NCBI RefSeq assembly: GCF_000145215.1
Contig: NC_014392.1
Coordinates: 1,992,001-2,056,000 of the forward strand
Reading direction: 5' to 3'
DNA from: Caldicellulosiruptor obsidiansis OB47
GTDB lineage: Bacteria; Bacillota; Thermoanaerobacteria; Caldicellulosiruptorales; Caldicellulosiruptoraceae
Length of the DNA: 64,000 bases
Shown here: positions 2,323 through 28,709 of the stretch, one piece after another
How positions within the stretch are numbered: position 1 is the first letter of the stretch
Layout of the letters: each line of letters begins with the position of its first letter
The notes under the pieces: generated by a model
What the model was told of the DNA's origin: nothing
What the model saw: only the letters and a program-made list of their open reading frames with translations
Database searches by the model: none
Program-made: the position numbers and the translations under genes

Positions 2323-4307
2323 TTACCAAAGTTCTACCTGATTTTTTATAAAAACTGGTATCGTATTCAATGGAGCTTGGCAAATAATTTCTTTTCCACC
2401 TTCATATACTTTTCCTGTTTCCCATTCATACCATTTAGCTCCTTCAGGCAGATAAACAGTCCTTTCTCTCACACCTTCATATAATACAGGAGCTACTAAT
2501 ATATCAGGTCCGAACATAAATTCATCTTCTATTTCCCATGATCTTGTATCAAAGGGGAAATCATAAAATAATGGTCGCATAATCGGTGTCCCTTTTTCAT
2601 GTGCAAGTAACATCTGCCTTTTTATATATGGCTTGAGCTTTTCACGAATATAAAGATACTTTTTAAAAATCTCATAAGCTTCTTCACCATAGCTCCATAC
2701 TTCATTTGGTCCACCAGTACCCATTTTCCCCCACCTTTATTACTTGTTGGTGGAGTATAAGGTTTTCTGTCACCATGCAGTCTAAATACAGGACAAAATG
2801 CTCCAAATTGAAACCATCTGATTATCAATTCTCTAAAAGAAGGATCCTCTGGATTACCGCCATAGAAACCTCCTATGTCACTTGTCCACCAGGGTATTCC
2901 CGCCATTGCCATATTTAAGCCACATGCAACTTGATTTCTCAATGATTCAAAAGTAGATGCAATATCCCCCGACCACACAACTACTCCATAGCGCTGTGCT
3001 CCAGCCCAAGCACAACGAATTAAGTTAATTATGTTTTCTATACCTTCCTTTTTCAATCCATCATAAAAAGTTTTTGCATACAGTAGAGGATAAATATTTC
3101 CTATTTCTAAACATGTTCCCAAGTAATATCGATAATTATCAAATTCATATTTATGGAACTCTGGCTCGGCTTCATCAAGCCAGTACATTTTAATGCCTTT
3201 TGAAAAATAATTTTCTTTGACTTTTCCCCACATAAATTCACGTGCTTCGGGATTAGTCATATCAACAAAAAGAGTGTCATTTATAAACTGCATTGTCACA
3301 CGTGGTCCCCGGTCGGTACTCATAAGTAATCCCTTCGAAAACATCTCTTCGTAATTTTCACTTTCTTTCTCAACAGTCGGCCATATAGATACCATTACTT
3401 CAATACCCATTTTTCTTAGCTCTTCTACCATTTTCTCTGGATTAGGCCAGTAATCTTCATCAAATTTCCAGTCTCCCTGATGTGGCCAATGGAAAAAATC
3501 AATCACAATTACATCAAGAGGAAGATTACGTCTTTTATATTCATACGCTACATCCATTAATTCTTGAGTATTTCTATACCTCAATTTACTTTGCCAAAAT
3601 CCCATTGCATAGTCAGGCATCATTGGAGGTGTGCCTGTAACTTGCATATATTGTTCTAAAATTTCAGCTGGATTATTACCTGCTGTTATCCAATAATCCA
3701 TAGTTTTAGTTACAAATGCTTCCCATTCAGTTATATTTTTACCAAATACAACCCTTCCAATTGCCGGATTGTTCCACAAAAAACCATATCCAATGTTTGA
3801 AACCAAAAAAGGAACGCTTGATTGGGTGTTTCTATGTGCAAGTTCTAAAGCACATCCCTTTAAATTCAAGTATGGCTGTTGATATTGCCCCATTCCATAA
3901 AGCTTTTCGTTAGGTTCTGATTCAAAGCGAACAGTTAATCTATAGCTACCTCCTGGAATTGGCTGAAACTCACGACCTCTTTTACGCAAGCCTGCTGCAA
4001 ATCTTGATGTATATTCTTTTAATATAATCCTATTTTCATTGTTATAAAACGTAATATCACCAGTTTGTTCTATTACTGCATATATGTTACCATTTCTTAT
4101 TGCTGCTCTATTTCCGTCAATCTCTATTCCCACGTTACTATTGTTATTCTTAGCTTTGGGTAATAAAGCCCAGTCATTTTCTGGCATATTCCCTTCTAAA
4201 GTCGCACGAACTCGCAAGCCATTTTTACCCCATGCCTCAATCCACAGAATTTCTCTGTCATATTTACTTATTAACTTATCTTCACCAACAGTAAAAAGTC
4301 TTGCCAT
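2323..4307 (-). pseudogene. GH31 glycosidase (alpha-xylosidase/alpha-glucosidase type), frameshifted near its C-terminus
   Basis: The first frame (about 560 residues) is a GH31 enzyme: N-terminal beta-sandwich, a (beta/alpha)8 barrel with the nucleophile Asp in MYWLDEAEPE and a probable acid/base Asp in WSGDIAST, and a FRLHGDRKPY segment. Around base 2725 the frame breaks in the run GGTGGGGGAAAATGGG. The rest of the domain (WSYGEEAYEIFKKY through FGPDILVAPVLYEG) continues in another frame to 2323. One missing base in the G5 or A4 run explains it. The start is ATG 4307, preceded by GAGGTG. It follows GH95 and GH127 in the same direction, so it would trim alpha-linked xylose or glucose in the cytoplasm. 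A homopolymer sequencing error is the main alternative to a real pseudogene. Confidence 0.85.
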
Positions 4308-4401
4308 TATTTTCACCTCACTAAACTATTTGATAACTTAGTTGTGTTTCAAATTTATATGGTTGTTTATACCCATATACTTTTAAAATTTTATCAAAAT
4401 A

Positions 4402-8516: not shown

Positions 8517-9327
8517 CTATAATTTTATTATCCTTCCAAGAATTGATTTAGAAAAACCTTTATATGTGTGATCAAAGGTAATTATCTCTGTTTTATTAAA
8601 ATCTATTTCACCTGTATGTTGTACTACGTATGGGTATACTTCCAGCTTAGAGCCGGCAACACAATATACAAGCATTCTTTCCAGTGGATAATAAACATCT
8701 TTCAGCATAACTGGACCTTCAATAAGTTCTCCTGACCAAAAATCTACCCAATTTCCTTTGGGCAAATAAATGTTTCTTCTTCCTGCAGAATTTATAATTG
8801 GAGCCACCAAGAAAACATCTCCACAATAAAATTCATCGTCAATATACCAGCAATATTCATCATCAGGATGATGAATAAGTAACGCTCTTATGAAAGGATA
8901 TCCTGTCTTTGTAACTTTTTTACCTTGCTTAACAAAATATGGAATCAACGCATATCGTAATTTCCACCATTCTCTTATAATATCGGATACATTAGGATAA
9001 TTATAAGGTTCTCGTGGGGAAGCCCCATGGTATCTCATGTGCGAAGTGAATACACCTACCTGTGTCCAGCGAACATAAATATCGTCATCAGGCCAATTAT
9101 TCATAAAATCTGGAAGACCATGAAATCCAGAAACATCATGGCTCCAGAAACCAAACCCTGATACACCAAGATGTAACCCCCCTCGAATTGTAGCTGCCAA
9201 GCCATCCCATGTACTGCTACTATCACCACCCCAGTGAACTGGATATCGCTGACATCCTATCTAACCTGCTCTTGCCCATATAACAGCTTGTTCTTCTCCT
9301 TTAGCTCTTGTTTTATTAAAAAATATT
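8517..9327 (-). pseudogene. GH31 remnant (YicI-like alpha-xylosidase C-terminal third) with an in-frame stop and lost 5' end
   Basis: Bases 8517-9200 read as the end of a GH31 enzyme: GLHLGVSGFGFWSHDVSGF, then WTQVGVFTSHMRYHG and the C-terminal sheet domain. Upstream in the same frame the family sequence continues as QRYPVHWGGDSSSTWDG, then a TAG stop (about 9260), then AVIWARAG, and becomes unrecognisable beyond about 9327. About 450 N-terminal residues, including the nucleophile region, are gone. It is a 5'-deleted pseudogene, and its loss may have removed the original operon promoter in front of GH127. Residual translation from the TTG at 9200 could not give an active enzyme. Confidence 0.85.
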
Positions 9328-14696: not shown

Positions 14697-15686
14697 ATGA
14701 AAATTTGCATAGTAGGCAGTAGTGGACACTATGTATATGCTTTAAGAGGAATAAAAGAAGACCCTGATGCCAAAATTGTGGGAATTTCCCCTGGATGTGA
14801 AGGAGAGAATATAGAAAAATTATTTTCTCAAGTAAATGAGATGGGATTTGCTCCTGAGGTCTATAGCAATCCTATAAGGATGTTTGAAGAACTCAAACCT
14901 GACATTGCTGTGATTAATACATTTTTTTATAAAAATTCTAAGCTTGCAATTGAAGCTATGAAAAGAGGAATTCACGTATATGTTGAAAAACCTGTTGCAC
15001 TATCAATCGAAGAACTTGAAGAACTAAAGAGTGTGTGGAAGCAAACAAAAGTAAAACTTTCGTCAATGCTGGGATTGCGGTATACACCCCATTTTTGGAC
15101 AGCTTATAAACTTATAAAAGAAAATAAGATAGGCGAAATCAGACTTTTACATGCTCAAAAATCTTATAAGCTTGGAAATAGACCCGACTTTTACAAGCAG
15201 AGAAGAACATATGGCGGAACAATTCCCTGGGTTGGTATTCATGCCATCGATTGGATTTATTGGCTGAGTGGCAAGAAATTTAAATTGGTCTTTGCAAGAC
15301 ATTCAAGACTTTACAATAATGATCATGGTGAGCTTGAAACTACTGCTTTTTGTAGTTTTTTGATGGAAGATGAAATTTTAGCAACGGTGAACATTGATTA
15401 TTTACGTCCTGCTACTGCTCCTACTCATGATGATGACAGAGTTAGAATTGTGGGGACAAAAGGAATTCTTGAAGTTTTAAACGGAAAAGTTTACCTGCTA
15501 AATGATACAACTAAAGAAGTCACAGAAGTCTCCCTAGAAAAACCACCTATTGTGTTTTTAGATTTCTTAAATGAAGTAAGAGGTACAGAGAAGTGCTTAG
15601 TAAGTAGCGAAGATAGCTTTTACGTGACCCTGGCTTCGCTTTTAGCAAGGCAGTCTGCTGACGAGGGAAAGGTGATTGAATTTTAA
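14697..15686 (+). CDS. Gfo/Idh/MocA-family NAD(P)-dependent dehydrogenase
   Basis: The 329-residue protein opens with a Rossmann fold (KICIVGSSGHYVYALRGI) and carries the diagnostic HVYVEKPVALS loop, in which the EKP Lys is the usual catalytic residue. The C-terminal alpha/beta domain includes WVGIHAIDWIYWLSG. Such enzymes oxidise or reduce sugars, inositols or sugar acids. It is last in the rightward operon, ending just before a strong hairpin. A role in oxidising a sugar freed by the GH106-like enzyme is plausible but inferred. Another member of this family, with little visible likeness beyond the fold, lies convergent at 15754-16968. Confidence 0.85.
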   Translation: MKICIVGSSGHYVYALRGIKEDPDAKIVGISPGCEGENIEKLFSQVNEMGFAPEVYSNPIRMFEELKPDIAVINTFFYKNSKLAIEAMKRGIHVYVEKPVALSIEELEELKSVWKQTKVKLSSMLGLRYTPHFWTAYKLIKENKIGEIRLLHAQKSYKLGNRPDFYKQRRTYGGTIPWVGIHAIDWIYWLSGKKFKLVFARHSRLYNNDHGELETTAFCSFLMEDEILATVNIDYLRPATAPTHDDDRVRIVGTKGILEVLNGKVYLLNDTTKEVTEVSLEKPPIVFLDFLNEVRGTEKCLVSSEDSFYVTLASLLARQSADEGKVIEF

Positions 15687-15695
15687 AATTGACAT

Positions 15696-15737
15696 AAAAA
15701 GACCTCCCTATAAACAATTCCAAGGAGGTCTCTTTTT
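15696..15737. terminator. Bidirectional intrinsic terminator between convergent dehydrogenase genes
   Basis: Stem GACCTCC (15701-15707) pairs with GGAGGTC (15724-15730), flanked by A5 on the left and a T-rich tract on the right, so it can stop transcription from both sides. Confidence 0.85.
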
Positions 15738-15753
15738 CTTTTGAGTTCTTTAA

Positions 15754-16968
15754 TCACTTCTCTCTAAACATATTGAATTTCTTATAATTTGTTAAATCAA
15801 AAGGTTCTGTCTCCTTGCCCCACGGCACTCCTATTTCTGAAAAAAGCTTTTTACTTTCAGCCGCCTCATCTATAATTTCTTTGATATTTTTGATATAGGT
15901 ACATATCTTCCCATTTTCACTGTTAATCTCTAAATACTCATCTGGAATATCGAAAATTCTTTTAGACGACTCAAAAGCCCCGTTTGATGCCAATACAAAA
16001 TTGCGGGTTATTTCCAGCGGACAATAAAGCTGTTTACCTTCAAATAAATGTTCTACCATATTTACATACATATTGACAAACAAATCTTCTTTGCCACCAT
16101 CAAATTCTTCAACAGAACCATCACAATACTCAATCTTAAATCTATTAGAAAACCACCAATTCGCTTTAGCCTTTTCAGCTTCAATAATTATAAATGGAGA
16201 TTCTTCATCTCTATTGCAAAGGGTCGAGTAAAAATATACTTCTGTGCCTCCATGAGTAATTATTCTCACACATGCTGTGTCTTCACCTTCAATTTTATGA
16301 CCATGATAAAGCTCTGCTTGAACATGTGCAGGAACTCCTCCACCTGGTTGAGCTGTTTCAGCAATAATTAGTTCATTGTTTAAAAGATGTGCAAGAGGAT
16401 TGTTTATTGTTCCATCCAAGACATAGTTGCCATCAACAACGAGTTTACCAGCCCATGCATTTCTTTGATAATAGCTTTCATCCCTTTTCCAACGTCCAAC
16501 ACCAACAATTGATTTTATTCTACCAAGTCGGCCTTCTTTTATATACTCAAGAAGTTTTCTAAATGCTTTACCTGAAGTGTTTTGAAAGTTCACACTACAA
16601 ACCCTATTTGTTTTTCTCTTTGTCTCAATTATAGCGTCAATATCTTGAATTGTCACAGCAGGCGGCTTTTCAAGCAGGACATTAAAACCTCTTTTCATTG
16701 CATCAATTGCCATTGGAGCATGTAGGTGTATGGGTGTTGAGATGGCAACAAAATCTAAGTCTTTGTGGTTTTCAAGCATTAATCTATAATCCTGATAATA
16801 CTCAACACCTCGAGAAGTCAATCTATCTATCACTTCTTTATTTTTTTCGTAGCTTGTTGCAACAATTGCCTTCAAGTCAACCATCTTTCCCTGGAGCTGT
16901 TCTATTGACCGTAAGTGTATACTCCCAAATCCACTAATTCCAATGAGACCAACCTTTGCAATCTTCAA
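15754..16968 (-). CDS. Gfo/Idh/MocA-family dehydrogenase (last gene of the redox operon)
   Basis: A 404-residue protein with Rossmann start KVGLIGISGFGSIHL, the catalytic-loop signature NVLLEKPPAVT, and the large C-terminal sheet domain. The start is a TTG (16968) with GGGGGC ten or so bases ahead. It follows the zinc alcohol dehydrogenase by only 27 bases, which points to a joint operon with the flavoprotein and the PreA-like protein. It probably carries out an NAD(P)-linked step on a sugar or sugar acid. Substrate and direction are not evident. Confidence 0.85.
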   Translation of the reverse strand: MKIAKVGLIGISGFGSIHLRSIEQLQGKMVDLKAIVATSYEKNKEVIDRLTSRGVEYYQDYRLMLENHKDLDFVAISTPIHLHAPMAIDAMKRGFNVLLEKPPAVTIQDIDAIIETKRKTNRVCSVNFQNTSGKAFRKLLEYIKEGRLGRIKSIVGVGRWKRDESYYQRNAWAGKLVVDGNYVLDGTINNPLAHLLNNELIIAETAQPGGGVPAHVQAELYHGHKIEGEDTACVRIITHGGTEVYFYSTLCNRDEESPFIIIEAEKAKANWWFSNRFKIEYCDGSVEEFDGGKEDLFVNMYVNMVEHLFEGKQLYCPLEITRNFVLASNGAFESSKRIFDIPDEYLEINSENGKICTYIKNIKEIIDEAAESKKLFSEIGVPWGKETEPFDLTNYKKFNMFREK

Positions 16969-16995
16969 GACTGTATGCCCCCTTTTAAATTATCT

Positions 16996-18084
16996 TCATG
17001 GCTTCAGAACAGATTTTATTGTATTTCTGTTTCCCATATCCTCAAGTGCTTTTGTCGCATCAGTCAATTTATAAATATTCGTAACCATTTTTTTAAAAAG
17101 TTTTTTATTTTGTAACACCACATTAACTGCCATATTTAAATGTTTTGTATCACTGACCCATACTCCTTGATATCTTAAATTTTTCCTTACAATGTCATAA
17201 TAACAGTCAAGTGTAACGCTGCCGTTTGGATCACCAAAACCAAGTGATAAGTAACTTCCACCATTTCGCACAAGTTTTATTCCCTCACTTACTGCTGATG
17301 GATGTCCCACAGCTTCAATTGCCAAATCGACTCCACGCCCATTTGTGATATCCATTATTATTTCCTGTCTTTGCTGAACTGTAGTTGAATTTCTATCAAG
17401 CACATGCGTTGCCCCAAATTCCTCACACATTTTAAGTCTTTCTTTTGTGCCGCCAATCACAATTATACTTCTTGCTCCTTTGAGTTTTGCAAAAATAATC
17501 GCATAAATCCCTATAGGACCTGGTCCTTGAATTAGAACACTGTCACCAAAATCAGGTGAAACAATGTCAAAAGCGTGAGCACATGTTGCGCCAGAACATG
17601 AGGCAGAAACTAAAACTTCTGGCTCAACATTTTCTTTTATTTTAAGAACCTTTGTATTTTTGTGAAGATAAATATATTCTGAATAACATCCTCTCAAATA
17701 TGGGGGCTCTGCGCAGCTAACACTTATACCATATGTCCATCTGTGCGGACACAGATAGCTTTCTTTTTTGACAGCACAAAAGTAGCACTTGCCACACACA
17801 ACACCCCTGTCCCAAATTATCAAATCCCCCTCCTGAATCTTCTCGCCATTTATATCACGCCACTGACCTGAAATAGCATACACACGCCCAACACCTTCGT
17901 GGCCTAAAATCATAGGAAGTTTTGTGCGCGGGTCATTTCCTTTGAACATATGCACATCAGAGCCACAAACACCTGCTGCTTCTATCTTTACTAAAAGTTC
18001 TCCATCAGTTGGAGACATTAATTCAAACTCTTTCATCTTCAATGGCTTGTTAAACTCTTCTAAAACCATTGCATAAGCTTTCAT
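16996..18084 (-). CDS. Zinc-dependent medium-chain alcohol/polyol dehydrogenase
   Basis: A 362-residue MDR enzyme. Catalytic zinc ligands are in GVCGSDVHMFKG and ILGHEGVGRV. The structural zinc lobe is CGKCYFCAVKKESYLC. The NAD(P) fold is VLIQGPGPIGIYAIIFAKLKG. It resembles sorbitol/threonine dehydrogenases and would oxidise a polyol or secondary alcohol. It lies 13 bases after the flavoprotein gene and 27 before a Gfo/Idh/MocA gene. The close spacing suggests a shared pathway, probably for an unusual sugar, polyol or sugar acid from the island's substrates. Confidence 0.87.
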   Translation of the reverse strand: MKAYAMVLEEFNKPLKMKEFELMSPTDGELLVKIEAAGVCGSDVHMFKGNDPRTKLPMILGHEGVGRVYAISGQWRDINGEKIQEGDLIIWDRGVVCGKCYFCAVKKESYLCPHRWTYGISVSCAEPPYLRGCYSEYIYLHKNTKVLKIKENVEPEVLVSASCSGATCAHAFDIVSPDFGDSVLIQGPGPIGIYAIIFAKLKGARSIIVIGGTKERLKMCEEFGATHVLDRNSTTVQQRQEIIMDITNGRGVDLAIEAVGHPSAVSEGIKLVRNGGSYLSLGFGDPNGSVTLDCYYDIVRKNLRYQGVWVSDTKHLNMAVNVVLQNKKLFKKMVTNIYKLTDATKALEDMGNRNTIKSVLKP

Positions 18085-18097
18085 TCTTGTTTTCCCC

Positions 18098-19891
18098 CTA
18101 CGCTTTTGGTTTTACCGGTTGCATTGGAAAGACTTCAATTTGATTGGTATCTTTATTTAGTCTGCATACATGATATACATTGTATCTTTCATCTCTTGGC
18201 TTTGGCCACAAACCGCTGTAATTTTCGAACATCAAGTGCGGTCCTCTGCTTTCATCTCTTAAAATACAGCTCTTTACCACTGCTTCTGCACACAAAAGCA
18301 TGCTTTTTAGCTCTAAAAGATATTCATACTCAACAGGCTTGACTTTTCTTGTTTTCAACTCCTCAATTTTTATAAGCGCTTTTTGAAGTCCATCTTGATA
18401 TCGTACAACACTTGCATACAAGTCCATAACACTATTTAGTTCTGAGATGGCTTTTTCTAAATCAATGCCATCTGCAGCTACATAGCTTTTATAGCTTTCA
18501 AACAAGCGGTTTGCTACCAAAATTGCAGATTCCTCATCAATTGAAGTGTTTAAAGCAAATTCAAAGCTACTTTCTCCTGCTATTTTGCCAAAAACTTGAG
18601 TATCCAAAAGTGCATTGCCACCTGGTCTGTTTGCCCCATGCTGCCCTCCTGCACACTCGCCACAGGCATACAAGCCCTCAACAGTTGTATTTGCTTTTTC
18701 TCTAATTTTTACACCACCCTGAAAATGCTGAATTGATGGCCCAATTTCTAGCATTTGGTTTCTAAGGTCAATTCCCCTCTTCAAGAACCACTCAACAGTC
18801 TGAGGATTTATTTCACACAGTCTTTCATATGGAGTAGATCTTTTATTTGTAAGATTTTTAATTTCTGAGTAATATCTTTGTTTTAAGTCTTCTCTTAGGT
18901 GTTCAAATTCAAAACCTTCTGGATTTTGAGTAAAGTCTAAAAACACTTTACCCCCACGGGCAATCTCTCTGAACACTGCAATGTCTATCAAACATGTCTT
19001 ATGCTCGTAGCTTATTGGCCATGTTGCTCCTTTTTCAAATACATCATTGTATGTAATAGGATAATTTATCAAAAATTCTTCTCCTTTTTCATTTACAAAC
19101 CTGGGGACACATCTCATTATACTTCCCGAACATGCAAGTTTTGTTTTGGGGGATGAAAGACCTATCTGGATAAACTCCATGTTTACAAGCTGGGCTCCTG
19201 CACGAAGTGCCATTGCGTAACCATCACCAGTCATTCGTGGCGGAAACACATTATTCTTATAAATACTTCCTGCCCCGCCTGTTGCAAGCACAACTGCTTT
19301 TGCAAGAATTATTACATTTTGAGCACCCCTAAAACCAACTGCCCCACAAACTTTGTTGTCAATTACAATCAAATCGCTTATCATTACATCCTCTAAAACT
19401 TCAATCTCTTTTATGTTACTAAGCCTTCTAATCAGAGCCTTTTCTATTTGAACAGCAGTATCAGGACCTGTAAAACATGCACGCGCATATATAGAACCAT
19501 CTGTAACAAATTGGACAGGTATCCCATTTTCTTTTACAAAGGGAACACCGAGATTATCTAAGTAAAAGTAAGCATCAGCTGAGTTTTTTGCTAAAATCTC
19601 AGCCAAGTCATAATCAGAAACAAGTCCGCCAATCTCATATATATCTTTTGCATGATATTTCCAGTTATCTTCACCTTTAGGCTCAGTTGTAGGAAGTGTG
19701 ACATGGAATGCCATTCTATCAGAGTATGCAAGAGCAGTTGTTCCACAACTTCCCAGTTTGCCTTTTACTGTTAATAAAACTTTAACTTTATTTCCTGTTT
19801 CATAAGCCTTTTCACATGCAGCAATTGCTGCCCTCAAACCTGCACCGCCACCACCTATTACCAGTATATCTGTTTTATATATCACTTTCAA
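18098..19891 (-). CDS. FAD-dependent oxidoreductase, fumarate reductase / succinate dehydrogenase flavoprotein family
   Basis: A 597-residue flavoprotein. The N-terminal FAD Rossmann motif is ILVIGGGGAGLRAAIAA. Other family features are VVLATGGAGSIY, MTGDGYAMALRAGA and the C-terminal GLYACGECAGGQHGANRPGG FAD loop. No haem or iron-sulfur partner of classical fumarate reductase is adjacent. Its start (TTG 19891) overlaps the stop of the PreA-like gene by four bases, so the two are translationally coupled and may form a complex, with the PreA-like ferredoxin clusters passing electrons to or from the FAD. The substrate is unknown. Fumarate itself is only one option. Confidence 0.82.
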   Translation of the reverse strand: MKVIYKTDILVIGGGGAGLRAAIAACEKAYETGNKVKVLLTVKGKLGSCGTTALAYSDRMAFHVTLPTTEPKGEDNWKYHAKDIYEIGGLVSDYDLAEILAKNSADAYFYLDNLGVPFVKENGIPVQFVTDGSIYARACFTGPDTAVQIEKALIRRLSNIKEIEVLEDVMISDLIVIDNKVCGAVGFRGAQNVIILAKAVVLATGGAGSIYKNNVFPPRMTGDGYAMALRAGAQLVNMEFIQIGLSSPKTKLACSGSIMRCVPRFVNEKGEEFLINYPITYNDVFEKGATWPISYEHKTCLIDIAVFREIARGGKVFLDFTQNPEGFEFEHLREDLKQRYYSEIKNLTNKRSTPYERLCEINPQTVEWFLKRGIDLRNQMLEIGPSIQHFQGGVKIREKANTTVEGLYACGECAGGQHGANRPGGNALLDTQVFGKIAGESSFEFALNTSIDEESAILVANRLFESYKSYVAADGIDLEKAISELNSVMDLYASVVRYQDGLQKALIKIEELKTRKVKPVEYEYLLELKSMLLCAEAVVKSCILRDESRGPHLMFENYSGLWPKPRDERYNVYHVCRLNKDTNQIEVFPMQPVKPKA

Positions 19892-21033
19892 ACTTCACCT
19901 CTTTTTACCATTGAAATTGCCTTGACTGGACAAAGTTCCGCACAAAGACCACAGCCATCGCAGTTCTGATTTACCTTAAACTTTCCGTCATCCTTTTCAA
20001 TTGCATCATATATGCATACTGTGAAGCACTTGCCACATGATGTGCATTTCTCTTTGTTAATCTTAGCAACTGCCCAATGTGTTCTGTCAACAGAGTCCAT
20101 GTCAAGAATTCTGCTGCACACCTTTCCTTTAAAATCATCAATCGTGTTGTAACCTTTTCTCTCCATATACTCTTCTAAATATTTGTTTATCTTATTTATA
20201 ACTCCATAGCCATTCAAAATTACAGTTGTACAAACTTGAACAGCAGATGCTCCTGCCAGTATGTATTTGACTACATCCTCACCGTTCATAGCACCGCCAC
20301 TTGCACTGATACTACATTTTACCTTTGGGGCTACAGCGCTTATCCACCTCAAACCATACATAATCGCCCACGGACCTCCATGCCCTGCATAACCACCGTG
20401 CAAAATGGGAGCTTCTTTTTCTATATCAATGTCAAGCCCTGTGAATCTATTAAACATTACAAGCCCGTCTGCTCCTGCTTGATCAAGTCTTAAGGCATCA
20501 GAGCCTGGATTTGTAGATTGAGGAGTCATTTTTGGTATCACAGGTATTTTTACATTGCTTTTGACAAGTTTTGTTGTATGGACCATCTCTTCAATTACAT
20601 CCATACCAGACATTATATGAACACCGTGCGGGCAAGATAAATTTAACTCTATTGCATCAGCTCCTGCTTGTTCCATAAGCTTACTATACTCAAGCCATGC
20701 ATCATCTGTGTAGCAGTTTATACTTGCAATAACTGGAATGCTTAGTTTTTGTTTTGCTTTGAATATAAATTCAGCATATTCTTGTGGATTTAATTCGCTT
20801 GCCTGTTCATATGAGTAAAGCGTAAATGTGTTTTCATGCTTGACTATTTTAAATCGTGGAGTGGGGGCAATTCTGCACACTTCTTTTTGAAAAAGACTTT
20901 TTGTCACAACAGCACCAGCACCGTTTTCTTCGCATCTTTGAAGCCTCTCCACAGTTCCAGTAATCCCAGCAGATGCAACAATTACAGGTGTTCTTAAAGT
21001 CAGCTTTGCATACGTCGTTGATAGGTTTGGCAT
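19888..21033 (-). CDS. Dihydroorotate-dehydrogenase-like protein with C-terminal 2x[4Fe-4S] ferredoxin domain (PreA-like)
   Basis: Residues 1-300 form an FMN-binding TIM barrel of the dihydroorotate/dihydropyrimidine dehydrogenase type (PVIVASAGITG, ELNLSCPHG, ISASGGAMNGEDVVKYILAGA). Residues 325-375 carry two clusters: CTSCGKCFTVC and CDGCGLCAELCP. This layout matches PreA of dihydropyrimidine dehydrogenase. The usual partner PreT is missing, and instead a fumarate-reductase-like flavoprotein overlaps its 3' end. No pyrimidine genes are nearby, so a pyrimidine role is doubtful. A GAGGAGG site precedes ATG 21033. The family is clear and the reaction is open. Confidence 0.85.
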   Translation of the reverse strand: MPNLSTTYAKLTLRTPVIVASAGITGTVERLQRCEENGAGAVVTKSLFQKEVCRIAPTPRFKIVKHENTFTLYSYEQASELNPQEYAEFIFKAKQKLSIPVIASINCYTDDAWLEYSKLMEQAGADAIELNLSCPHGVHIMSGMDVIEEMVHTTKLVKSNVKIPVIPKMTPQSTNPGSDALRLDQAGADGLVMFNRFTGLDIDIEKEAPILHGGYAGHGGPWAIMYGLRWISAVAPKVKCSISASGGAMNGEDVVKYILAGASAVQVCTTVILNGYGVINKINKYLEEYMERKGYNTIDDFKGKVCSRILDMDSVDRTHWAVAKINKEKCTSCGKCFTVCIYDAIEKDDGKFKVNQNCDGCGLCAELCPVKAISMVKRGEV

Positions 21034-21074: not shown

Positions 21075-21097
21075 AAGGAGTGGAAAAGCCACTCCTT
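21075..21097 (-). terminator. Hairpin between a dead solute-binding protein gene and the PreA-like operon
   Basis: AAGGAGTGG (21075-21083) pairs perfectly with CCACTCCTT (21089-21097) across a 5-base loop. On the minus strand it is followed by a T-rich stretch. It sits exactly where a hairpin also follows the live binding-protein gene at 28.75 kb, suggesting it once limited read-through from the binding-protein gene into the enzymes. Confidence 0.6.
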
Positions 21098-21104
21098 TCT
21101 AAGG

Positions 21105-21745
21105 TTTTAACCAAAACATCTACATTTTTCTCCTTTCCTATTATTAATTTTACAAACATCTCATCATAGAAAGTATTAACATTCTGCTTCCACTGAACTC
21201 ACTTGCTCTGTTCCAGAACTTCAATATCTGCCCCTCTTTAATACGGGATTTTCACAAACCAATATCGAAAATTTTTGTTTACCCTGATAGCTCATAGTAT
21301 AAGTCTGCAGTGAACTTACCGCTGAATTCCAAGCAATCACTTTATCATTCAAAATATCTGGTTCTATCTGATTGGTATTTGTATTTTGTATAAATATGGT
21401 ATTTTTCTAACCAATCCTTCCTAATGGCAGGGCCACGTGTTGAAAATTGCTTCTCTATAATGTCTGGAAAACAATATATCTTTCCATCATCCGTCAACAT
21501 TTGTTTCTGCCAATCAGGATGCTCTTTCAAGAGCTTTTTAAGATTTGGACAATACTTGTCAACATAATTATTTAAAGGAATTATTACTTTATCTGCTATA
21601 GCCTTCATTGGCCCACCATTATAGTTATTGGTTCAGTTCATCTCAATTACATCTGTTAACTTTTGTGAAGCTATCAGTAAATTTAATTGGTCATTGAAAG
21701 CACTTGATGGTGGATGAATAAATTTGAAATCTACTATGATTATTT
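21105..21745 (-). pseudogene. Degraded ABC sugar-binding protein (LipO type)
   Basis: Pieces of an extracellular solute-binding protein read leftward: FKFIHPPSSAFNDQLNLLI, then DVIEMN, a TGA where family members have Trp, TNNYNGGPMKAIADK and ILTDDGKIYCFPDI-type sequence (21345-21608). After a large internal loss come EPDILNDKVIAW and, in a shifted frame, NTFYDEMFVKLIIGKE, which resembles the C-terminal stretch before the family's end. Signal peptide, middle and reading frame are lost. It implies a second sugar importer once fed the adjacent redox operon. The exact boundaries are approximate. Confidence 0.8.
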
Positions 21746-23026: not shown

Positions 23027-24214
23027 CTACCAATACACGTTCCAATCTTTTACAAGCCTTATTAAGCTTTCAAAAAAGAAATAATCACCCCATATTGTGT
23101 GTTCATCCACACCTTCATTTTTTGGCTTATTATAAACGCCATGCAAAAGCAAACCGTCTGAATCCAGATGTTGAGAAGCTAAGTAGTTTGTTGACAACGA
23201 AAATACCATATTTTTTACTGCATTTTCATAGTACTCTCTGTGCTCATCACAAAGGGGTATAAACTTTAACATCTTTAATATGCCGCAGATACAAATTGCT
23301 GCTGCAGAACTATCTCTCGGCTGCTCGCCTTCTGTGAAAACCAAGTCCCAATAAGGCACGTAGTCCTCTGGCAATCTGTTAAGAAAATAATTTAAAAGTT
23401 TCTTTGCAATATCCATGAAAATCCAATCCCGTGTGTACTTGTAACTCAACACAAATCCATATATCCCCCAAGCTTACCCTCTTGCCCAGCATGAACTATC
23501 TGAGTACCCTTGATGAGTTGAGCCATACAAAGGCTTACCTGTTTCAACATCAAAATAAAATGTATGGAAGGTTGACGCATCTTCTCTTACTATGTTCTCA
23601 GCAGTCCTTTTCGCATGCTTGTGGGCTATCTCAAAAAACTTTTTATCACCTGTTTGGATGCTTGCCCAATACAAAAGCGGAAGGTTCATCAGACAGTCTA
23701 TTATTATCCTGCCTTTTTGGGCAGGGTCGTCCATAGTACCCCATGCCTGAATTATACCAGGTTTTTCCCAGTACCTCGTACAAAGCTGTTTTGCCGCTTC
23801 TATAGCAATGTTTTTAGCTCCTTCATCGCCTGTAACTTTGTAGCATGCAACACACGAAAGAGTATATAAAAATCCAAGGTCGTGGGTATCTATGTGTATC
23901 CTACTTTTGAGTCTTTTTTCAAAGCTATCTAAATGCGTTTTTGCCAAATCTTTATATTTGTTCTCACCTGTGAGTTCATATGCAAGCCAAAGCATACCAG
24001 TGTAAAATGATGAAGTCCAGTAAATATTATCTACAACGTCATACTTGAGACTTTTACTTGCAGGTGATGGAAACTTCTCACCAAACTTCTCTATCATCTT
24101 ATCAAGTTTTGAAAGCACCAGTTTAAAAACTTCTTCCACAAAGGCTTTGTTAACTAAAGGTGAATTGCTAAACTTAAGCCTATCTTTTATACATTCATCT
24201 TTGATTTTAAGCAT
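23027..24214 (-). pseudogene. GH88 unsaturated glucuronyl hydrolase interrupted by one in-frame stop
   Basis: The gene reads as a 395-residue (alpha/alpha)6-barrel GH88 enzyme except for a TAA at 23474-23476. Before it: TSSFYTGMLWLAYELTG, IDTHDLGFLY, GRIIIDCLMNLPLL (catalytic-type Asp) and STHQGYSDSSCWARG. After it in the same frame: AWGIYGFVLSYKYT. The family has Gln here (ARGQAW), so a single C-to-T change (CAA to TAA) explains the stop. An intact enzyme would hydrate and split off 4,5-unsaturated uronic acid left by a lyase. ATG 24214 follows GGAGGAG at the end of the beta-glucuronidase gene, two bases away. True loss, suppression or sequencing error are the choices. Confidence 0.85.
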
Positions 24215-24216
24215 TT

Positions 24217-28709
<4,493 letters not shown>

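Follow-up and report, generated by a model that had tools for sequence, protein, structure and literature searches.

The stretch of DNA analysed here (the window; 64,000 nucleotides of the genome of Caldicellulosiruptor obsidiansis OB47, a heat-loving plant degrader, contig NC_014392.1) carries on its minus strand a set of four redox genes that had been pointed out in a sequence-only reading; the four ORFs (PreA-like protein, fumarate-reductase-like flavoprotein, zinc dehydrogenase and Gfo/Idh/MocA protein) are all open at that place, and Pfam agrees with every assignment. The flavoprotein belongs to an uncharacterised family, hereafter FLAV. The genes and their accompanying features are the following:

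19888..21033, minus strand: PreA-like (DHOD-like) FMN barrel with a C-terminal two-[4Fe-4S] ferredoxin domain, 381 aa (PF01180 DHO_dh plus Fer4 domains)
18098..19891, minus strand: FLAV, fumarate-reductase-like FAD flavoprotein, 597 aa (PF00890 and PF02910)
16996..18084, minus strand: zinc-dependent dehydrogenase of the MDR family, 362 aa (PF08240 and PF00107)
15754..16968, minus strand: Gfo/Idh/MocA oxidoreductase, 404 aa, last gene of the operon (PF01408)
14697..15686, plus strand: second Gfo/Idh/MocA oxidoreductase, 329 aa, convergent neighbour (400.8 bits to PDB 3ip3)
19888..19891, minus strand: overlap of the PreA-like stop and the FLAV start, 4 bp (from the coordinates)
20014..20046, minus strand: first 4Fe-4S motif, CTSCGKCFTVC, PreA-like residues 330-340, all four cysteines invariant
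19930..19962, minus strand: second 4Fe-4S motif, CDGCGLCAELC, PreA-like residues 358-368, cysteines 1-3 invariant and the fourth nearly so
15700..15740, no strand assigned: inverted repeat AGACCTCC...GGAGGTCT plus a run of T, lying between the convergent genes and probably a terminator (found by direct reading of the sequence)

The four minus-strand genes are likely to form one operon, since the first two overlap by 4 bp, exactly as the sequence-only reading had it, and the following gaps measure 13 bp (FLAV/zinc dehydrogenase) and 27 bp (zinc dehydrogenase/Gfo/Idh/MocA). The inverted repeat between the convergent genes was not listed by a pattern scan confined to short loops. A GC-rich hairpin with a T-rich tail (21075-21097, minus strand) precedes the PreA-like gene by about 40 bp and lies downstream of both promoter-like sites at 21646 and 21786; it is possibly a leader element or an upstream terminator.

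By curated cut-offs the barrel protein is not PreA: it reaches 220.2 bits against the NF006183 (PreA) model, whose cut-off is 335. Its best PDB match is dihydropyrimidine dehydrogenase (DPD; 1gt8), and the catalytic-type Cys134 is invariant in 12 aligned relatives; in its pocket (N82, Q84, N131, S133, C134, N195, R196), five of the seven residues of the pig enzyme are kept, the aligned counterparts (N609, E611, N668, S670, C671, N736, T737) being those that line the pyrimidine pocket, and the two exchanges being E611 to Gln84 and T737 to Arg196. The predicted model of this protein is moderate (pLDDT 77.5) and was left out of further analysis. No PreT-like gene was found in the unit or among its neighbours, no pyrimidine genes were recognised in the loci examined, and pyrimidine degradation was rejected on scores, pocket residues and genomic context. 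Relatives of the barrel in three genomes (G024, G044, G086) have no adjoining FLAV and are fused to a domain read as GltD/PreT-like; FLAV therefore seems to occupy the place held elsewhere by an NAD(P)H module. The long PreA-like ORFs being fusions to this domain and not to FLAV, a PreA-like/FLAV gene fusion was rejected. A further PreA-like gene (47% identity; genome G374, L174:10371-15777) lies with a cupin gene, two zinc dehydrogenase genes and a putative IlvD/Edd-type dehydratase gene (assigned by reading), without FLAV.

FLAV, in turn, is not a fumarate reductase by curated cut-offs, scoring 214.7 bits against 567 for TIGR01812 (SDH/FRD flavoprotein) and 317 against 718 for TfrA. Its predicted model (pLDDT 93.4) has the FrdA/SdhA fold, and a Foldseek comparison with 1kf6 gave an E-value of 5e-41 and a TM-score of 0.8. 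Some 100 positions are invariant in an alignment of 42 relatives, in which His389, Arg422 and Arg260 are conserved, the last being, from its place, the putative catalytic arginine; alignment with 7d6v puts Gly244 at the position of the HPT-motif histidine. No FrdB/SdhB iron-sulfur subunit is encoded in the unit or its neighbours, and fumarate respiration is disfavoured by the FLAV scores, the lost histidine and the missing subunits. The absence of the usual partners, remarked upon from the letters of the sequence, is borne out (no PreT-like, FrdB/SdhB or membrane-subunit gene at the locus), and a role outside both pyrimidine and fumarate metabolism is supported by the scores below cut-offs, the changed pocket, the lost histidine and the context.

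The zinc dehydrogenase (397.9 bits to PDB 1vj0) is a core member of the unit, its gene adjoining FLAV in 31 of 37 core loci (defined below), and the Gfo/Idh/MocA genes are accessory. Orthologues of the gene at 15754-16968 adjoin the unit in Thermoanaerobacterium and at the loci L103 and L115; those of the convergent gene at 14697-15686 do so at L103 and L115, and, because the two types are next to each other and to the unit at these two distant loci, the convergent gene probably belongs with it as well. The protein of 15754-16968 scores 55.1 bits against a cut-off of 750 for glycoside 3-dehydrogenase (NF058561), and its best PDB match, glucuronide-3-dehydrogenase 8tdi, reaches only 50.6 bits.

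The unit is real and conserved. FLAV is found in seven of the 12 genomes of the genus, that of the window included; its presence with 88-92% identity and in the same gene order in six of the 11 other genomes, and with 72% identity in two genomes of the same class (Thermoanaerobacterium), is more than chance. True FLAV occurs in 24 of 398 sampled genomes of the phylum, two further matches (36-39% identity) having been set aside as an outgroup, and a contig scan returned 80 FLAV loci in Bacillota, Thermodesulfobacteriota, Myxococcota, Chloroflexota, Planctomycetota, Latescibacterota, Thermotogota, Dictyoglomota and others; carriers are also found in Deltaproteobacteria, and every one of them is apparently an anaerobe. 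FLAV is thus a widespread and apparently unstudied family of anaerobes. The profiling of the PreA-like/FLAV pair that the sequence-only reading had proposed comes out in its favour: with the PreA-like protein counted as present at 45% identity or more, 11 of the 398 phylum genomes have both, three the PreA-like protein without FLAV and 13 FLAV without the PreA-like protein (Fisher p ~1e-12, phylogeny ignored).

The neighbours of FLAV were compared in the 37 core loci that remained after deduplication and had 4 kb or more of sequence on either side, whose genes were called, clustered and turned into profiles, partners being counted within seven genes. An FMN barrel is present in 29 of them, PreA-like in 11 and OYE-like in 18, never both together. 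The OYE-like partner, of about 450 aa, has four invariant cysteines, that is, one Fe-S site, and matches the N-terminal half only of BaiCD-like proteins, the C-terminal FAD/NAD half being absent; both barrel types carry Fe-S cysteines and no NAD(P) domain. On a quick FLAV tree, whose deep nodes are weak, the partner labels need 20 changes in total, and its well-supported branches at least six for PreA and at least nine for OYE ("none" counted as a state); partners are swapped even between close relatives (L053 against L041/L071, and L063/L072 against L059-L070). Because the labels alternate so repeatedly, the two unrelated FMN/Fe-S barrels apparently take each other's place next to a single FAD protein. 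Of the partnership first proposed, the FMN barrel stands as a genuine partner, and a PreA-like one is not obligatory. Nor is a barrel beside FLAV a universal rule, since in a Chloroflexota/Planctomycetota/Latescibacterota clade no barrel or dehydrogenase was found near FLAV; a search for partner genes in the Chloroflexota clade met neighbours that appeared unrelated.

The placement of the unit inside a sugar island, also noted at first reading, is correct and can be made more specific: the flanking genes (GH106, GDSL esterase, PcRGLX-type (PL26-like) rhamnogalacturonan exolyase, GH88/GH105-type, GH2, GH95, GH127, GH31, DUF2264, sugar ABC transporter) make it an island for rhamnogalacturonan-I (RG-I) use, and relatives of the same genus have the unit also near S-layer PL11 rhamnogalacturonan lyases. 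The redox unit is intact in an island that seems to be decaying in places. A single in-frame stop codon breaks the GH88/GH105-type gene (23027-24370, minus strand) into two ORFs, probably through pseudogene formation or a sequencing error; one GH31 gene appears to carry a frameshift near the beginning of its C-terminal third, and of a second only a C-terminal remnant is present (2323-4316 and 8517-9200, minus strand). In two genomes of the same genus, the neighbouring GH2 gene is broken by the same pair of ORFs (400 + 254 aa; L031:4585-6572, L033:13869-15856), probably an insertion element.

At other FLAV loci the neighbours include pectin lyases or xylanases and TRAP or tricarboxylate transporters, and RG-I, pectin or xylan enzymes adjoin the unit in several lineages. 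A gene for KDG (2-keto-3-deoxygluconate) kinase, KDPG aldolase or both, with the family assignments confirmed, is found no more than seven genes from FLAV in 10 of the 37 core loci, seven of which have both (~1e-10 by a rough chance model), and UxuA lies within 25 kb in four of 13 genomes, one copy being broken (rough chance ~5e-5). Altronate/galactarate dehydratase (UxaA), tagaturonate reductase (UxaB), Eda and KdgK are encoded near FLAV in G247, with UxaE at 21 kb, and UxuA and UxuB-like genes with organic-acid-type transporters in G098 and G110. G390 has two copies, one among UxuAB-like, GH10, GH52, GH39-like and acetyl-xylan esterase genes, the other adjoining RhaA, FGGY kinase, GH106 and GH4, with UxaC 7 kb away. 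A Dictyoglomus locus (L117) has GH4 and a pectate lyase (the latter by reading only), and a Peptococcaceae locus (L101) an oligogalacturonate-lyase-like gene. The genomic neighbours thus indicate that the unit feeds the hexuronate-to-KDG trunk. In Moorella sulfitireducens a broken UxuA lies directly downstream of the OYE/FLAV pair (L183:14466-14966, minus strand). UroD/MtaA-like, LarA-like, AroE-like or CoA-transferase-like genes are present at some FLAV loci, and the substrates may therefore differ between lineages; those of the UroD/MtaA-like methyltransferase family occur in the Moorella group and other Clostridia (L040, L043, L044, L045, L047, L185), beside FLAV or in adjoining uronate islands. 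Since UxaC is absent from all 16 FLAV-carrying genomes outside the class of the window, free galacturonate or glucuronate is not necessarily the compound that enters the route. The sequence-only reading had argued for an unusual sugar acid or polyol derivative: the KDG, Uxa and Uxu neighbours support the sugar acid, the context pointing to hexuronates and the KDG trunk more than to polyols.

In the genome of the window itself, KduI, Eda, UxaC and UxuA are present, and the kdg operon, like the KDG kinase/KDPG aldolase genes, lies away from the unit. A simple replacement of KduI/KduD was rejected on the presence of KduI and of the kdg operon elsewhere, and a simple replacement of the whole hexuronate pathway on that of UxaC and UxuA; the latter is also contradicted by the distant islands in which UxaA/UxaB or UxuA/UxuB-like genes lie beside the unit. 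According to a C. bescii regulon study (PMC8579813), the galacturonate steps that usually follow UxaC are missing in Caldicellulosiruptor; the study tentatively assigns other gene clusters. In the genomes surveyed, altronate dehydratase is absent from 13/13 of the family and UxaE from 12/12 of the genus. Some of the missing steps may be supplied by the unit; it cannot be the sole answer, since only seven of the 12 genus genomes carry it.

From gene content, conservation, partner exchange, Fe-S ligands and genomic context, all seen directly, we infer complex formation, electron path, substrate class and direction. The reading we prefer, to which we give an even chance, is that the unit would break down a sugar acid derived from hexuronate and released from RG-I (in relatives, from pectin or glucuronoxylan), and that in it FLAV, with its FAD, and the PreA-like protein, with FMN and two [4Fe-4S] clusters, would form one NAD(P)-free complex of two flavins. 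The FAD of FLAV would be the site for the carboxylate-bearing sugar acid and the FMN of the barrel that for a second sugar intermediate, with the Fe-S clusters carrying two electrons between them, so that the pair itself would need neither NAD(P)H nor quinone. Catalytic-type residues are kept in both flavin proteins, and an NAD(P) domain is missing from each; a two-electron relay is the simplest reading. The zinc dehydrogenase would carry out a separate NAD(P)-linked keto/alcohol step, the Gfo/Idh/MocA proteins would prepare uronides or keto forms, and the product would enter the hexuronate trunk to KDG, for use by KDG kinase and KDPG aldolase. Candidate chemistries include a C4 oxidation-reduction interconverting galacto and gluco forms, or the handling of O-methylated glucuronate. 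Against this proposal speak the FLAV islands that also hold standard hexuronate enzymes, so that the unit is no plain replacement, the lack of UxaC in the 16 genomes mentioned, and the clade without a barrel or dehydrogenase nearby. A bolder version, which we hold to be unlikely, makes the pair an internal redox machine that works without NAD(P): successive forms of the same hexuronate-derived acid would be oxidised at one flavin and reduced at the other, and the net reaction would be a redox-neutral isomerisation, epimerisation or dehydration. This would give anaerobes a widespread additional way into KDG, besides Uxa/Uxu and Kdu.

The main rival to the two-flavin relay is coupling to ferredoxin, in which the sugar acid would react at a single flavin site, the Fe-S clusters would exchange electrons with ferredoxin, and the other flavin would be an entry, storage or bifurcating site. 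The ferredoxin-like C-terminal domain of the barrel and the apparently anaerobic life of all carriers are in its favour, as are the GltD/PreT-like fusions, from which it follows that the barrel can accept electrons from elsewhere; set against the catalytic-type residues kept in both flavin subunits and an OYE-type partner with one Fe-S site only, it seems to us somewhat unlikely. The substrate might instead be an O-substituted glucuronate closed to the standard Uxa/Uxu enzymes (for example 4-O-methylglucuronate of glucuronoxylan or arabinogalactan side chains), as suggested by the xylan-type surroundings of the first G390 copy, by the GH2 enzyme of the island in the window, read as beta-glucuronidase-like, and by MtaA/CmuA-like methyltransferase-family genes at several Moorella-group loci; given that no corrinoid protein was recognised at these loci, that there is no direct link to methylated sugars and that the Dictyoglomus locus looks purely pectinolytic, we consider this improbable.

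Fumarate or another small acid could also serve FLAV as terminal electron sink for a sugar-acid dehydrogenase borne by the barrel, in keeping with the FrdA-type fold and the conserved catalytic-type Arg260 and His389/Arg422 pair; the histidine replaced by Gly244 is that which holds the second carboxylate in FrdA/SdhA, and with scores far under the FrdA/SdhA and TfrA cut-offs the idea is very improbable. Least credible of all is a true PreA with an unusual partner, serving pyrimidine metabolism: the DPD match in the PDB faces the shortfall of 220 bits against 335, the Gln84 and Arg196 exchanges and the want of recognised pyrimidine genes in the loci examined.

The gene set was not found described in the open-access literature searched; the unit is therefore probably undescribed, as the sequence-only reading had surmised of the pathway. 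If the two-flavin reading is true, anaerobes of several phyla would share an undescribed enzyme complex for the acidic sugars of plants (pectin, rhamnogalacturonan, glucuronoxylan), and the exchange of partners, with one FAD subunit taking one or the other of two unrelated FMN/Fe-S barrels, would be unusual among flavin complexes. The unit is also a concrete candidate for part of the post-UxaC galacturonate gap in Caldicellulosiruptor, though carried by seven of 12 genus genomes.

Compared with known systems, the PreA-like protein shares the FMN barrel and the SCPHG cysteine with PreA/DPD and class 1B dihydroorotate dehydrogenase, and with DPD also the C-terminal two-cluster ferredoxin domain; it differs from PreA/DPD in the missing PreT partner, the altered pyrimidine pocket and the scores below curated cut-offs. 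FLAV has in common with FrdA/SdhA, TfrA and L-aspartate oxidase the fold, the FAD domains, the His389/Arg422 carboxylate pair and the ESRG motif, but, compared with FrdA/SdhA, it keeps His and Arg for one carboxylate only, and, unlike fumarate reductase, it has an FMN/Fe-S barrel as partner in place of FrdB and membrane subunits. The OYE-like partner shares the FMN barrel and four Fe-S cysteines with Old Yellow Enzyme, BaiCD and mycofactocin OYE_2, whereas it is shorter by the C-terminal FAD/NAD half and far under the cut-offs. Two Thermotoga maritima proteins, TM0436 (1vj0) and TM_0425 (3ip3), match the zinc dehydrogenase and the product of 14697-15686, respectively, with about 400 bits each; both are structural-genomics entries whose functions are, to our knowledge, not established. 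With hexuronate catabolism (UxaABC, UxuAB, UxaE, KduID, KdgK, Eda) the unit has its genomic islands and its predicted end point in common, whereas the two-flavin pair and the zinc dehydrogenase are absent from the hexuronate pathways described so far.
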